Origin: a virus
Length of the DNA stretch: 29,472 nt
Virus record (IMG/VR): IMGVR_UViG_3300027733_000156
Span: 1 to 29,472 of that record
Reading direction: 5' to 3' (one strand)
The translations under genes and the position numbers were made by a program. Positions 1 to 29,472 of the stretch are shown piece by piece (position 1 is the first letter of the stretch; the number at the start of each line of letters is the position of its first letter). Under the pieces are notes generated by a model that saw only the letters and a list, made by a program, of their open reading frames with translations, had not been told where the DNA came from and did no database searches.

Positions 1-142
1 TTCATCGGCATTGTTTCCAAATCCAGAACCATCTTTAATTCCTAAAAGTAATGGAGATATAACTCGATGTGCTACCATTATTTTACGCATACTTTCGTCA
101 GATAGGAATTGATACTGATTATGAGCATCAGATAGCTGAACT
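1..142. repeat. Terminal redundancy, left copy (matches 29331-29472)
   Basis: Bases 17-142 are identical to 29347-29472. The first 16 bases differ from 29331-29346 at three positions (7, 13, 16). All three fall in third codon positions of the portal gene and are silent (GGA/GGT, AAC/AAT, GCC/GCA). This is the signature of a circular or permuted genome assembled to overlap, with the outermost bases coming from a close relative. A true direct terminal repeat would normally be identical throughout. Confidence 0.9.
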
Positions 143-15443: not shown

Positions 15444-16625
15444 TTATCTTACTGCATACTTTCCGTAGTTCGGTCTTGCCAGCTTATCGTATAAAGCGTA
15501 ACGCACCGCATCAATTGTGTGATTGAATAAATCTGTTGGCTCATTTTGCACTATTCCATTTTTATCTTCTTTCCATTTGTAATTCCTAAACTCTTTTATC
15601 ATATTCAAGGAATCCTTTGTAATGTTAATCCGATATCGTTTCATCATATCAATTCCGATGTTCACACTACCTTGACCTTTGGTTGCTGGTTTAATATTCC
15701 AACCCATACGATAAAGTTCCTCGATTGATTTTGGTTCGGCACTATCTGCAAAGATTTCTTTTCTTTCAATGCCAAATGATTTTAAATGACTATCAATATC
15801 CCTATTGGTCAACCCAGTTTTAAACAACAATTCTTTTAAATATAAATCATCTCCTTGTTTCCATACTTCTACTAATGTGGTTGGGTCATTTGTAAAGCCA
15901 AAGTCCATTCCGTAAGATAAAAACTCTGCTGTATCTGGAATGTCAACACAATCTTTAAATCTAAATATTATTGACTTACTTGCTCCTACTTCTCCTAATC
16001 CGTAAACTCTCCAGTAATTCTCATCAATATCTTTTAGCCGTTCAATTTCTTTTATTGTTTCATATTCTAAGAATGGATTGTCCAGATAGTTTGTAATATA
16101 AAAGTCTGAATCATCTCTTGGCTTTATTTTATCATAAATGAAATGAAACTCATCAGAGGGATTATAGTCTAAAATTATCTTTCCAGTAGTACGGAATACT
16201 AATTGTTGCCAGTCCTCAAAGTATATCTCATTCGCTTCGTTAATGTATAGCATATCTCTTTTACGACCTCTTAATTTTTGTGGCTGGTCTAAAGATATAA
16301 ATTCAATTAAGTTTCCATTAAGGATGTATTCTGAATTAGATTTGTTATGATATTGTTCATCGTATAAATCATAAGTTCTTAATATCTCAAAGAAATCTCT
16401 CATACAACTGGCACGTAAAGCCGGATAAGTTTTACGGCATATAGTTATAGTTAAACCTTTGTTTTCTGTTGTGAACTGAAATATAATCCACATTAAAATA
16501 TTATAGGTCTTACCACTTCTTGTTCCACCTTGCTCAATCGTAATTCTTTTATTACTTTCGGCAAGATGTTCAAATACTATATTAGTTTTTATTCTTTTCT
16601 TTTCTTCCAATGATTTCAATTTCAA
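15444..16625 (-). CDS. Terminase large subunit
   Basis: A 393-residue packaging motor with ATPase and nuclease domains. Walker A is GGTRSGKT (residues 33-40); Walker B with catalytic Glu is MLYINEANE (125-133). The nuclease part has Asp241 (SYGMDFGFTNDPT), Asp294 (IFADSAEPKS) and a C-terminal Asp in FNHTIDAVRYAL. The length is near the low end for PBSX-type terminases. It drives DNA into the capsid through the portal and cuts it. The start overlaps the small subunit by 44 bases. Confidence 0.93.
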   Translation of the reverse strand: MKLKSLEEKKRIKTNIVFEHLAESNKRITIEQGGTRSGKTYNILMWIIFQFTTENKGLTITICRKTYPALRASCMRDFFEILRTYDLYDEQYHNKSNSEYILNGNLIEFISLDQPQKLRGRKRDMLYINEANEIYFEDWQQLVFRTTGKIILDYNPSDEFHFIYDKIKPRDDSDFYITNYLDNPFLEYETIKEIERLKDIDENYWRVYGLGEVGASKSIIFRFKDCVDIPDTAEFLSYGMDFGFTNDPTTLVEVWKQGDDLYLKELLFKTGLTNRDIDSHLKSFGIERKEIFADSAEPKSIEELYRMGWNIKPATKGQGSVNIGIDMMKRYRINITKDSLNMIKEFRNYKWKEDKNGIVQNEPTDLFNHTIDAVRYALYDKLARPNYGKYAVR

Positions 16626-16954: not shown

Positions 16955-18037
16955 TTAATTATATTTTTCTTGTCCTATTGGTACAAATAGTTTTTCGTCT
17001 GGTTGATTGTTATGTTTTTGAACTCCTCCTTGTAAGGTGCTCTTTTGAGTAAATGAAAGTAATATTTCAAAATCATCTGGAGCATTATATTCTGATATAT
17101 AAATTTTATTGCTCTTTGATATTTCTCTTACCCAATTCCAAAACTCTTTATGATTAAATGCTCCCTCTTTATATTCTGCCGTTCCTTGATATGGAGGGTC
17201 ACAGTATATTATTGCATCTTTTGGTATTTCTACTTCATTATAATTATTGCTATAAATTTCCAGTCGTTCCAGTTGTTGCAGTCGTTCCAGTTGTTGCAGT
17301 TGTTGCAGTTGTTGCAGTTGTTCCAGTCGTTGCAGTTGTTCCAGTTGTTGCAGTCGTTCCAGTTGTTGCAGTTGTTGCAGTTGTTGCAGTTGTTCCAGTC
17401 GTTGCAGTTGTTGCAGTTGTTCCAGTCGTTCCAGTTGTTGCAGTCGTTCCAGTTGTTCCAGTTGTTCCAGTTGTTGCAGTTGTTCCAGTTCTAAAATTCT
17501 ATTCTTTAAAACTTTTGCGACTTTACCTAAAGCAATTCTTCTCTTATGCCAATCAGTTTGTTTTAGTATTCCATCGATATATTTTTGTGGAATATTAGGT
17601 AATAATTGTTTTAATAGTTTTGAGTCTTTATTTATTACTAATTCGTGTCCAGCTCTTTTGTATGGCTCTGTTTCTTTTCCAAAAATATATCCTTTTTGAT
17701 TATTACCAAAACTCCATATACACATTGCATAACCTACATACCAATCTTCATAATTATTTGGATTTTTTAATAGGTCTTCAAACTTTGCTCTTGTAATAAA
17801 TTCTAAACATTTTTTCTCATCTAAACCTTTGTTTATTGTTTGTTCTAATAAAGCAACTACATATTTATTTTTATCATTTGCAATAACATTAAATCCATTT
17901 TTATAAAACAATTCTCCAATAGCAAAACCACCACAGAATAAATCTATAATGGTTTTTTGATTTGGATTAAAATTTATAATAGTTTGATAAATTTTTTGTG
18001 CTGATTTTCTTTTTGAACCCATATAAGGTATTGCCAT
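16955..18037 (-). CDS. DNA adenine methyltransferase (D12 class) with LxQ repeat
   Basis: A 360-residue N6-adenine methyltransferase. MGSKRKSAQKI (6-16) is motif X, DLFCGG (32-37) is motif I for SAM binding, and DPPY (280-283) is the catalytic motif. Between them, residues 185-259 are 25 tandem tripeptides (Glu/Gln)-(Gln/Arg)-Leu, encoded by 9-base units. Flanking parts look like an intact enzyme, so the repeat is an in-frame insertion just before the catalytic motif. It overlaps the ParB-like stop (TAATG). Modification of phage DNA to escape restriction is the likely role. Confidence 0.87.
   Translation of the reverse strand: MAIPYMGSKRKSAQKIYQTIINFNPNQKTIIDLFCGGFAIGELFYKNGFNVIANDKNKYVVALLEQTINKGLDEKKCLEFITRAKFEDLLKNPNNYEDWYVGYAMCIWSFGNNQKGYIFGKETEPYKRAGHELVINKDSKLLKQLLPNIPQKYIDGILKQTDWHKRRIALGKVAKVLKNRILELEQLQQLEQLEQLERLQQLERLEQLQQLQRLEQLQQLQQLQQLERLQQLEQLQRLEQLQQLQQLQQLERLQQLERLEIYSNNYNEVEIPKDAIIYCDPPYQGTAEYKEGAFNHKEFWNWVREISKSNKIYISEYNAPDDFEILLSFTQKSTLQGGVQKHNNQPDEKLFVPIGQEKYN
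17261..17485. repeat. 25-copy 9-bp tandem repeat in the adenine methyltransferase
   Basis: Plus-strand units CAGTTGTTG, CAGTTGTTC, CAGTCGTTC and CAGTCGTTG, 25 in a row with no gap. Only two bases vary; the coded tripeptide is QQL, EQL, ERL or QRL. Units 1-8 (17261-17332) and 9-16 (17333-17404) are a 72-base duplication with one base difference. As 9 is a multiple of 3, gain or loss of units keeps the frame. Confidence 0.97.
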
Positions 18038-18510
18038 TATACATCAAATTTATGTGCACATTTAGGACACGTTACCACCTTGCTTTGTTTGTCTGCATTC
18101 CTATCTTCATTTGAATTTATATTATCAAAGTCAATATCTTCATCATCAAAATAAATTGGTGTATCTAAACCCCAATCTTTTAAAGTTTGAACATCCCATT
18201 CATTGGCCAGTATATCCCAATCCCATTCTCCGCCAGATACATTGTCTTTGATTAAGAACTCTTTTTGTTGCTCCTCTGTTAAGTCTGTTATAATAATTGG
18301 AACTTCTGCCAACCCAGCTTCAATTGATGCTTTAAATCGCATATTACCTCCTAAGATAATCATATCTTTATTTACAACTATCGGTCTAATATCTAACATC
18401 TCTGGAAAGTCTTTTATTGACTGAACTAATTTTCTAAACTTATCATCCTTAATTAATCTTGGATTATTTGGATTGATTTTTACTTCTGAAATCTTTACTG
18501 TTTTATTCAT
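18037..18510 (-). CDS. ParB/Srx-type nuclease domain protein
   Basis: A 157-residue protein with a ParB-like N-terminal domain. KISEVKINPNNPRLIKDD is box I-like; the GGNMRFKASIEAGLAEVPII motif (about residues 55-73) is the conserved box II. The C-terminus has a CPKCAHKFDV half zinc ribbon. Phages often encode such proteins beside or fused to DNA methyltransferases, as here with the adenine methyltransferase that overlaps its stop. The domain may bind or nick DNA, or use CTP or ATP; the exact activity is not clear from sequence. Confidence 0.8.
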   Translation of the reverse strand: MNKTVKISEVKINPNNPRLIKDDKFRKLVQSIKDFPEMLDIRPIVVNKDMIILGGNMRFKASIEAGLAEVPIIITDLTEEQQKEFLIKDNVSGGEWDWDILANEWDVQTLKDWGLDTPIYFDDEDIDFDNINSNEDRNADKQSKVVTCPKCAHKFDV

Positions 18511-18881: not shown

Positions 18882-19588
18882 TCTGTTCTTAGTTTTAATA
18901 GTTGGTAACATTCTAAATACTTCTCCCTTGCTTTATTACGATATAATTCTTTATAAAGAGTAAATACTGCTTTCATAAAAGAATAGTTGCTTAAACAATC
19001 TTTAAATGCTTTTTTACAATATGCTTTTCCAAATCCTTTGCAGTAGTTTACATTATCAGCAGAATCTCCAGAAATCATTTGTTCGTAGAAATTATATCTA
19101 GCTTCAAGTGGAGTTATATCATAAAACAATTGCTTTTTATAATGGTAATCATAAATCAAGCAAGGGAACTGTTTGTAGTCCTTATCTATACTTACAATTA
19201 ATACTTCATCTCTACCAAAGGTATCTGTTAATGTTTTCCAATAGGTAGCCACTACATCGTCAGTTTCAACACCCTCTCCAGCAATAGCATTGTAATTATC
19301 TTTTACGTAACGATTAAGTTCGTTTAATATTGGAGGCCTATCACTTTCTTTCCGATTTGCTTTATAGTCTTTCGATATTTGTTTTCTAAAATTACCTCTG
19401 GCTCCAGCAAAGGTTAGCACCTTATCAATCTCGTATCGTTCTTCAATCTTATTGATGATTGACATAAATACTTCATCAAATTTTGCTACTGCATTTTCAA
19501 GTGTATGGTACATATCATCATCTGGGTGTTCTTTCTTTCGGTAACAACTGCTCCATATTAAGCTATCTGCATCTACTAATACTATCAT
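18878..19588 (-). CDS. 5'-3' exonuclease (FEN-like)
   Basis: A 236-residue nuclease of the T7 gene 6 / PolI 5' nuclease kind. Metal-binding acids are visible at Asp6 and Asp8 (MIVLVDADSL), Glu108, Asp110 and Asp111 (GVETDDVV), Asp135 and Asp137 (SIDKDYKQF) and Asp175/Asp178 (GDSADNV). It removes RNA primers and flaps in replication or resects ends for recombination by the Erf protein. It is coupled to the neighbours: its ATG overlaps the methyltransferase stop by one base, and its stop overlaps the DnaA-like start. Confidence 0.85.
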   Translation of the reverse strand: MIVLVDADSLIWSSCYRKKEHPDDDMYHTLENAVAKFDEVFMSIINKIEERYEIDKVLTFAGARGNFRKQISKDYKANRKESDRPPILNELNRYVKDNYNAIAGEGVETDDVVATYWKTLTDTFGRDEVLIVSIDKDYKQFPCLIYDYHYKKQLFYDITPLEARYNFYEQMISGDSADNVNYCKGFGKAYCKKAFKDCLSNYSFMKAVFTLYKELYRNKAREKYLECYQLLKLRTE

Positions 19589-20232
19589 TAAAATAATTGT
19601 GTTTGGTTAATATTTGATTTCTCTACTATACATCTTGCAATATTAAATATAGTTTTTCCAGCTTCGTAGTCTACTAAGTTTCTTGCCATTTTTAAAACAG
19701 ATTGATTTCCTTTATATTTTGTAAAGTCATAATTATGAAATTCACACAATCCTTTTAACTCTTGTTTTTCTGAACTTATTGCAAATCTTCTGTCGTTTAA
19801 ATCATTTGGTAGTTTAAAGTTTGTCCAGTATAAATGCCTACCTCTTTTTTGTGCTGGTATTAATGGCTCGTAGTAAGGGATTACATTTTCAACTACATAT
19901 TTACCAGTTCTGTAATAATGTTGTAAAAACAAAATTTCCTCATACAATTTCATATCTGGGTAAATTGCTTTTGTTGTAGTATCGTAATTTGAACTGTTCC
20001 AATATCTTGCTCGTGAGTGACTAGGGCAAGGAGGCGAACTCCAAATAAAATCAAACTCTTTGTAATGGTCTAATAGGTACTGGTGTGCATCTGCAACAAT
20101 AACTATGTCGTTTGGAAATCTCTCTTGATATAATCTTGCAGCTTCTGGGTCAAGTTCAACTGCAGTAACTTCGCAATCCTCCCATAAAAGTCTATTGCCC
20201 CCCAAACACGCATATAAATTTAATACTTTCAT
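19588..20232 (-). CDS. DNA cytosine-5 methyltransferase-like protein
   Basis: A 214-residue protein. SSPPCPSHSRAR (65-76) is motif IV with the catalytic Cys69, and VVENVIPYYEPLIP (113-126) is motif VI with Glu-Asn-Val. The N-terminus (MKVLNLYACLGGNRLL) is the SAM-binding motif I, with Cys-Leu-Gly-Gly in place of the usual Phe-x-Gly-x-Gly. It is shorter than most cytosine methyltransferases and has a small target domain, as in other phage versions. A host-type promoter lies 30-60 bases upstream. Confidence 0.85.
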   Translation of the reverse strand: MKVLNLYACLGGNRLLWEDCEVTAVELDPEAARLYQERFPNDIVIVADAHQYLLDHYKEFDFIWSSPPCPSHSRARYWNSSNYDTTTKAIYPDMKLYEEILFLQHYYRTGKYVVENVIPYYEPLIPAQKRGRHLYWTNFKLPNDLNDRRFAISSEKQELKGLCEFHNYDFTKYKGNQSVLKMARNLVDYEAGKTIFNIARCIVEKSNINQTQLF

Positions 20233-26871: not shown

Positions 26872-26895
26872 AATTTTTTTGGTTTTTGCTTATAT

Positions 26896-26993
26896 ATATA
26901 TTATTATATATTATTATTATATATTATTATTATATATTATTATTATATATTATTATTATATATTATTATTATATATTATTATTATTATATATA
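26896..26993. repeat. 13-bp AT-only tandem repeat, candidate origin or regulatory array
   Basis: Six perfect 13-base units (ATATATTATTATT, starting at 26906, 26919, 26932, 26945, 26958 and 26971) with a 10-base partial copy before them and a degenerate end. It lies in the longest gene-free stretch (26872-27120, 249 bases), between late terminator and NinG. Pure A/T, easily melted. Each unit holds TATAAT on the minus strand. Confidence 0.9.
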
Positions 26994-28553: not shown

Positions 28554-29472
28554 TTACATATCGTGTGGTGCGATAAACGCCCTTGAATCGGTTATTGGTG
28601 GAATAAATCCATTTTCAGAAATACTTCTTGATGGACTAACTATTTCGGCATTCGGACTATAAACATCTACTTTTCCAGTTCTGTCTTTAGTAGCATAAGT
28701 TTCACGTACCCAAAAGTGTTTACACGTTCCAAAATTAAAATTATCAGATAACTTACCACCGCCTTTCCATAAAAAGATATCGTATGGCTGATTAGGATTA
28801 GGATGCATACCGAATCCGGGATTAACCGTATTTTTGCTCATTCTGTCAATATCTTCTCTACGATAGATTTTATTAGCTGACATCATTTCCTTGCAGAATG
28901 ACCTCTCTGGACTTGGATTGCCATCGTATCTATATCTCACTTTATAAATTGGAGTATCTTCATCAGAATTTGCATTACCATAAGCTGACCCGGTGCTTAA
29001 ATGAACGCTTAACATTTCATCTAATTTTTTCTCCATTTCATAGTCAACTTGTCTTGAATCAATTAATTCGTAAACATCCAAGTCTATAACTTCGCCATAT
29101 TCTGACAAATCAATTTGTTGTTGGCTTAATGTTTTTTGACCAGTTTCTTGTTCAATTTGAGTAGTAGATACTGCGTTACTTAAATCATTAAATTCAAGAG
29201 GTTGTAAGGTCTTAAAGTAAAGATTTAATGATATTTTATTATAAGCTAATATTTTATCAAATGGTTTTATTAATAGATTTTGAAACGGTCTAATAACGGT
29301 ATTATCCATTAAAATAGATGCAGTTTTTAATTCATCTGCATTATTACCAAATCCAGAACCATCTTTAATTCCTAAAAGTAATGGAGATATAACTCGATGT
29401 GCTACCATTATTTTACGCATACTTTCGTCAGATAGGAATTGATACTGATTATGAGCATCAGATAGCTGAACT
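28554..29472 (-). CDS. Portal protein, C-terminal part (gene starts at 990)
   Basis: This is the 3' part of the portal gene, ending with a stop at 28554. The segment 29331-29472 repeats bases 1-142, so the new sequence starts at 29330 and adds 258 residues. The ATG at 29420 is internal (it corresponds to 90) and is not a gene start. The C-terminal domain has an FCKEMM...NKIYRREDI stretch, a VNPGFG motif, a WKGGGK motif and a TCKHFWVRETY motif, an arrangement I associate with portal C-termini of Bacteroidetes phages, where a small extra domain follows the portal core. The next gene starts two bases after the stop. Confidence 0.85.
   Translation of the reverse strand, partial: VQLSDAHNQYQFLSDESMRKIMVAHRVISPLLLGIKDGSGFGNNADELKTASILMDNTVIRPFQNLLIKPFDKILAYNKISLNLYFKTLQPLEFNDLSNAVSTTQIEQETGQKTLSQQQIDLSEYGEVIDLDVYELIDSRQVDYEMEKKLDEMLSVHLSTGSAYGNANSDEDTPIYKVRYRYDGNPSPERSFCKEMMSANKIYRREDIDRMSKNTVNPGFGMHPNPNQPYDIFLWKGGGKLSDNFNFGTCKHFWVRETYATKDRTGKVDVYSPNAEIVSPSRSISENGFIPPITDSRAFIAPHDM
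29331..29472. repeat. Terminal redundancy, right copy (matches 1-142)
   Basis: This is the right-hand copy of the 142-base overlap. Joining 29330 to position 1 gives a continuous portal reading frame, which supports circular closure at about 29,330 bases. Confidence 0.9.

Follow-up and report, generated by a model that had tools for sequence, protein, structure and literature searches.

An in-frame tripeptide repeat array of variable length in a predicted phage D12-family adenine methyltransferase

The DNA analyzed here, hereafter the window (29,472 nucleotides; IMG/VR record IMGVR_UViG_3300027733_000156), encodes a D12/Dam-family N6-adenine DNA methyltransferase in which 25 in-frame 9-bp units, read as (E/Q)(Q/R)L, precede the strand that leads to the catalytic DPPY. 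Such arrays are a real and widespread feature of a known enzyme class, are apparently undescribed, and gain and lose whole 9-bp units by unequal exchange, much faster than their flanks change. The anatomy of the array and its mode of change are well supported, and function is treated as hypothesis: in the account favored here, at slightly better than even confidence, the loop between the recognition region and the DPPY strand would have turned into a hypervariable, length-adjustable repeat arm.

The methyltransferase and its repeat array

The protein matches Pfam MethyltransfD12 (PF02086) with 54.1 bits (cut-off 22; 2.5e-14), PHROG 56, DNA methyltransferase (6e-27), and a type II methyltransferase profile in PADLOC. 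Its motifs follow the order of the alpha group (X, I, recognition region, and IV with DPPY) and are near-invariant across 61 relatives (Table 1). The AF2 model has a confident Dam-like core (mean pLDDT 83), and its structural matches are T4Dam, E. coli Dam, and DpnM at Z 15-17, with T4Dam (1yf3) at Z 16.9 (rmsd 3.1, 201 residues aligned) and E. coli Dam (2g1p) at Z 15.9 (rmsd 3.0, 197 aligned). Against NCBIfam TIGR00571, the dam subfamily that acts on GATC, the protein scores 33.1 where the cut-off is 114.85, and thus the enzyme should not be named Dam in the GATC sense. It is a predicted phage orphan adenine methyltransferase, adenine methylation being known through its relatives (PMC4190342), and it probably guards phage DNA against host restriction.

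Four unit types make up the array, namely GAACAACTG (EQL), CAACAACTG (QQL), GAACGACTG (ERL), and CAACGACTG (QRL), and variation is confined to base 1 (G or C) and base 5 (A or G) of each unit. Tandem Repeats Finder scores the array at 326 with period 9 and at 376 with period 18, far above the other repeats of the window. Counted along the plus strand, units 1-8 (coding units 25-18) match units 9-16 (coding units 17-10) at all but one of 72 bases. The coordinates, unit letters, and near-perfect 72-base block given in an earlier sequence-only reading were all correct on recount, and its remark that leucine at every third residue does not fit a heptad coiled coil is shared here. The leucine codon of the array, CTG, is scarce elsewhere in the phage (10 of 418 leucine codons in 13 other genes), as expected if the array recently expanded from one seed unit. 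Two antisense ORFs of 114 and 146 aa (window 17150-17598, plus strand) owe their open passage through the array solely to the lack of stop codons in the repeat when read in their frames, and they show no sign of being genes.

Table 1. Features of the window (positions are those of the whole window).
Feature	Position	Strand	Basis or remark
Terminase large subunit	15444..16625	-	NCBIfam TIGR01547, 1.3e-39; downstream neighbor but one of the methyltransferase
D12/Dam-family N6-adenine DNA methyltransferase	16955..18037	-	360-aa ORF; Pfam MethyltransfD12, PHROG 56, AF2 fold
Motif IV, DPPY (catalytic), residues 280-283	17189..17200	-	D280, P282, Y283 invariant in 61 sequences
25-unit in-frame 9-bp array (E/Q)(Q/R)L, residues 185-259	17261..17485	-	Unit reading and Tandem Repeats Finder
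Coding unit 17 (GAACAACTG), hybrid of units 17 and 9 of the 17-unit allele	17333..17341	-	Marks the crossover
72 bp (8 units) missing from L001	17341..17412	-	One 72-base gap and 0 mismatches in a global alignment; placement one of several equivalent
SFGNNQ segment, residues 109-114	17696..17713	-	S109, F110, G111, N112 (nearly) invariant in 61 sequences
Motif I, DLFCGG (SAM binding)	17927..17944	-	D32, G36, G37 invariant in 61 sequences
Motif X, PYMGSK	18011..18028	-	G7, S8, K9 invariant in 61 sequences
ParB-like nuclease-domain protein	18037..18510	-	PHROG 620, 1.6e-27; immediately upstream of the methyltransferase gene
Cytosine-type methyltransferase homologue	19588-20232		Close to the adenine methyltransferase gene

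In HMMER alignments, the strand after the array aligns from residue 147 of T4Dam and residue 156 of E. coli Dam onward, which places the array as an insertion: the last helix that follows the recognition region lies on one side, and on the other is the strand that runs up to DPPY. The aligned part in an hhalign comparison of the family with E. coli Dam covers the first 65 residues only. The sequence-only reading had placed the array where target recognition is expected; it does lie beside the recognition region, but it is not within the conserved SFGNNQ segment, which is likely part of that region by its conservation. Conservation in the presumed recognition region peaks at WSFGNNQxxYLFG, about 70 residues before the array.

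Structure prediction, which the same reading had suggested for this region, leaves the array itself poorly defined. The AF2 model extends the preceding helix, residues 163-222, into the array, residues 224-257 fall below pLDDT 50, and in a model of a 5-unit protein the array is a coil of low confidence. Glutamate, glutamine, arginine, and leucine are all helix-favoring residues. The array is tied at each end to the same domain, and unit numbers in relatives cover 4 to 25 smoothly with no preference for even or odd counts, which makes a rigid register unlikely; the preferred picture is that of an exposed arm that would be mostly helical or flexible.

The surroundings of the gene offer several side observations. 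The ParB-like gene and the cytosine-type methyltransferase homologue form with it a modification-rich cluster adjoining the terminase gene. Window positions 1-142 and 29331-29472 form a direct repeat of 142 bases at 97.9% identity, and the window ends split one gene into a 330-aa ORF at 1-990 and an ORF at 28554-29471; the record therefore probably represents a single genome, either circular or circularly permuted. At 26890-26990, non-coding in the ORF list, an AT-rich 13-bp tandem repeat (TTATATATTATTA, 7.6 copies, 97% matches) is a possible origin or iteron region.

Unequal exchange adds and removes whole units

A second contig (L001) has no mismatch to the window in 6867 flanking bases (6552 + 315), and carries 17 units against 25. 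One unequal crossover of the 17-unit array with itself reproduces the 25-unit array exactly, and every solution puts the breakpoint within unit 17, somewhere from base 1 to base 5. A crossover inside the unit yields the hybrid listed in Table 1, so that the one-base difference between the two 72-base blocks needs no point mutation. Growth by block duplication, as the sequence-only reading had proposed, is thus borne out by this pair and its single-crossover solution.

Five further near-identical pairs differ in copy number. L032 and L278 carry 8 and 12 units with no mismatch in 1265 flanking bases, and L071 and L082 carry 17 and 13 units with 10 mismatches in 8356 flanking bases; the others are L027/L028 (11 and 9 units), L109/L115 (11 and 9), and LP9609/LP0109 (6 and 4). 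After one deletion, the substitutions left over in the four of these pairs that come from IMG/VR lie exclusively at base 1 or base 5. Furthermore, the overlapping ends of one assembled circular contig (3300027973_000134) carry 9 and 6 units, a difference of 27 bases, and otherwise have no mismatch. The unit is 9 bp and alleles differ by whole units, so the array does not behave as a frameshifting phase-variable repeat, whose unit is not a multiple of three. The suggestions of the sequence-only reading that the frame is kept and that copy number varies hold in these six pairs and the one genome, and the constant copy number that would have counted against it is not what the comparison of homologues returned, unit number differing among relatives over the range given above.

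That reading had also named assembly collapse or expansion as a possible sole source of the array. This is unlikely as a general cause, since several variable arrays span 54-108 bp, shorter than a usual read; in addition, two assemblies (L003 and L006) carry the same allele. For the 225-bp array of the window, a length that short-read assembly can misjudge, an artefact is possible; the hybrid unit argues against exact duplication by an assembler, which would not create one.

Relatives and the pattern of variation

A total of 117 distinct arrays of 4-25 units, which share ancestry so that counts across them are not independent, were read at the same place before the DPPY strand in relatives down to about 30% identity. 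With more than 100 relatives carrying similar arrays at one place, a chance origin is excluded. The first IMG/VR search returned 47 relatives whose reading frames carry arrays; it was partly seeded with the repeat peptide, a bias removed by repeating the search with an array-free alignment. Among the best 80 loci of the second search, the canonical array is present in 38 of the 64 complete members, and another run with leucine at every third residue (LxxLxx), for example (LQN)n, in 25 of the remaining 26, so that arrays or array-like leucine runs are kept in 63 of the 64 complete relatives examined. Compact homologues with zero units at the same join occur in Klebsiella, Vibrio, Cellulophaga, and Bacteroides phages, and the array is therefore dispensable for the fold.

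Cultured carriers include the Lactococcus phages 8R06S, Phi15, Phi93, and Phi145 and the Leuconostoc phage LDG, with looser units in a Cylindrospermopsis virus and the podophage Lau218. The 8R06S protein matches more than 200 Lactococcus phage records, in ten of which arrays were read. A frame-blind scan of IMG/VR DNA for five coding [EQ][QR]L units returned at least 120 stretches, and among the matches listed, long mixed-letter in-frame arrays occur only in D12 methyltransferases. The remaining listed matches look like short ORFs or ORFs of low complexity, most of them built from a single unit type, and no gene was identified in them.

Several variants were observed alongside these. Sister enzymes in IMG/VR (L245-L250, L256-L271) have in this position a uniform array of (LQN)n units that varies in length, which amounts to a second unit alphabet. 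One locus (L020:4827-7062) holds two tandem paralogous methyltransferases, one with a canonical array and the other with LQG/LES units, and a relative on a Fibrobacter MAG contig (L213:1-471) has about 14 pure ERL units. Three BFVD matches (A0A2H4FIE3, A0A126HDS1, and H9EEE7) are relatives of the window enzyme from Lactococcus phages, present as fragments of 108-181 aa, and 936 phages may carry shortened or split copies of the enzyme.

Within 110 arrays, base 1 varies in 98% and base 5 in 97%, while the four synonymous positions vary in 15-27%. The palette is narrow: E or Q at position 1 in 95% of units, Q or R at position 2 in 96%, and leucine at position 3 in 99% (1113 of 1123). Across arrays, 19 different synonymous backgrounds occur. 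Equal homogenization would give all sites like diversity, which indicates that bases 1 and 5 are held diverse, and the bases around the toggles differ between backgrounds, which argues against a sequence-directed mutator. Arginine is paired with glutamate inside one unit above expectation in 88 of 103 arrays and below it in 15 (sign test 1e-13, a value too small because the arrays are related), and this coupling keeps its sign in most codon backgrounds. Adjacent units tend to differ (z -4.1 for E/Q and -3.7 for Q/R). The coupling is within the unit only: helix salt bridges from i to i+4 are not enriched (odds ratio 1.07). A charge constraint beyond unit composition was likewise rejected, the net charge of arrays varying as in random draws of units. 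Judged from these sequences, the pattern points to selection on the protein, and the diversity at bases 1 and 5 could also have a non-selective cause.

Possible roles of the array

In the favored account, unequal exchange between units adds and removes whole 9-bp units at a pace beyond that of the flanks, within a palette restricted to leucine at position 3, E or Q at 1, and Q or R at 2, with R favored beside E. Anchored at both ends in one domain, the array would project as a near-neutral arm, largely helical or flexible. Selection would preserve its mixed composition (soluble, helix-favoring, and charge-balanced), with length drifting or adapting quickly. More tentatively, the arm might tune the grip of the enzyme on DNA or on another enzyme copy, through affinity, processivity, or stringency, and not the target base by base.

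A specificity switch, in which unit number or letter order alters the target and re-aims protection against host restriction as gap length does in TAEL repeats, appears unlikely. It would draw on the position of the array next to the recognition region, on the clear precedent of the TAEL repeats in type IC HsdS (PMC3874165), and on motifs published for 936 phages. Murphy and colleagues linked CC6mAG in Phi15 and CY6mAG in Phi93 and Phi145 to these genes, with motifs from SMRT sequencing and CYAG assigned to its gene by alignment only (PMC4190342). M.Phi15I has about 7 array units, and M.Phi93II and M.Phi145II have 19; the figure legend of that paper (PMC4190342) mentions 55 and 15 residues omitted from the alignment, and judging from the sequences these are most likely the array. 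The shift of specificity with copy number that the sequence-only reading had envisaged is nevertheless not supported so far: relatives with 7 and 19 units both have 4-bp motifs, CCAG and CYAG. The units thus do not read bases one per unit, and a TALE-like reader, whose target scales with its units, does not fit, with the caveat that the second motif rests on the alignment. The Phi15 and Phi93 enzymes also differ elsewhere, and the looser CYAG cannot be ascribed to the longer array; the SFGNNQ segment is conserved regardless of the array; and the even spread of unit numbers, without parity or phase, speaks against rigid TAEL-like phasing.

That the array is a tolerated passenger, a near-neutral expansion in an exposed loop filtered only for solubility and helix-formers and of functionless length, is similarly improbable. 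Zero-unit relatives and the free differences in copy number between near-identical phages would suit it, but neutrality predicts equal diversity where bases 1 and 5 far exceed the synonymous sites, the E-R coupling has one sign across codon backgrounds, and nearly all complete relatives retain the leucine run. It is rather less probable that the leucine-rich arm associates with itself or binds a host or phage partner, with letter order setting the partner and conflict keeping the diversity; the near-fixed leucine and the two diverse exposed positions would favor such a surface, and no partner is known. As a long shot, the QQ, EQ, ER, and QR units might be letters of a combinatorial surface shuffled by crossover, whose order and number choose a DNA context or a partner; if true, this would give a modification enzyme a fast, in-frame means of diversification that differs from phase variation and from the diversity generators known so far. 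Least credible is an element acting as DNA or RNA (a binding site, hypermutation target, or directed diversification) with an incidental peptide: toggling is limited to two bases of nine as this would require, but the 19 synonymous backgrounds alter the DNA around the toggled bases and leave the peptide palette unchanged, and divergent members retain the leucine periodicity with other residues.

Methyltransferases are among the chief means by which phages withstand host restriction, and a region beside the recognition part that varies in length between otherwise identical phages, probably within one sample, amounts to a natural experiment on enzyme adaptation. Cultured and sequenced 936 phages with short and long arrays make its role directly testable in Lactococcus. 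The combination of uniform silent sites with two diverse coding bases is, moreover, a signature worth seeking in other repeat proteins.

The open-licence literature gave no result in searches for the array, for methyltransferase tripeptide repeats, or for the peptide strings themselves. Other repeat classes were rejected: the LED repeat (PF20854) scores 17.3 against a cut-off of 59, LRR and internalin profiles stay far under their cut-offs, and a diversity-generating retroelement target would vary specifically at adenines, through template copying by a reverse transcriptase, where base 1 toggles between G and C. The 936-phage enzymes M.Phi15I, M.Phi93II, and M.Phi145II (PMC4190342) belong to the same family, share the (E/Q)(Q/R)L array and its position with the window protein, and are about 30-40% identical to it; a term search of the text of that paper found no description of the array.

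T4Dam, E. coli Dam, and DpnM (PF02086) share with the window enzyme the fold, the motif order X-I-recognition-IV, DPPY, and the phage context. Their solved structures lack a repeat array ahead of the motif IV strand, and the helical segment after the recognition region is larger in the window enzyme than in these solved enzymes. The TAEL/LEAT repeats of type IC HsdS (EcoR124I/EcoR124II) resemble the array as short in-frame repeats of helix-forming residues in a modification enzyme, with copy number changing and the frame preserved. However, HsdS is a separate specificity subunit whose two recognition domains are joined by 2-3 copies of a 4-residue unit that set the gap, whereas the array family places 4-25 copies of 3 residues within the catalytic chain of a single-chain D12 enzyme. 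The mod phasevarions are likewise a case of repeat-driven methyltransferase variation; they switch on and off by frameshift, while the 9-bp unit of the window array keeps the frame.
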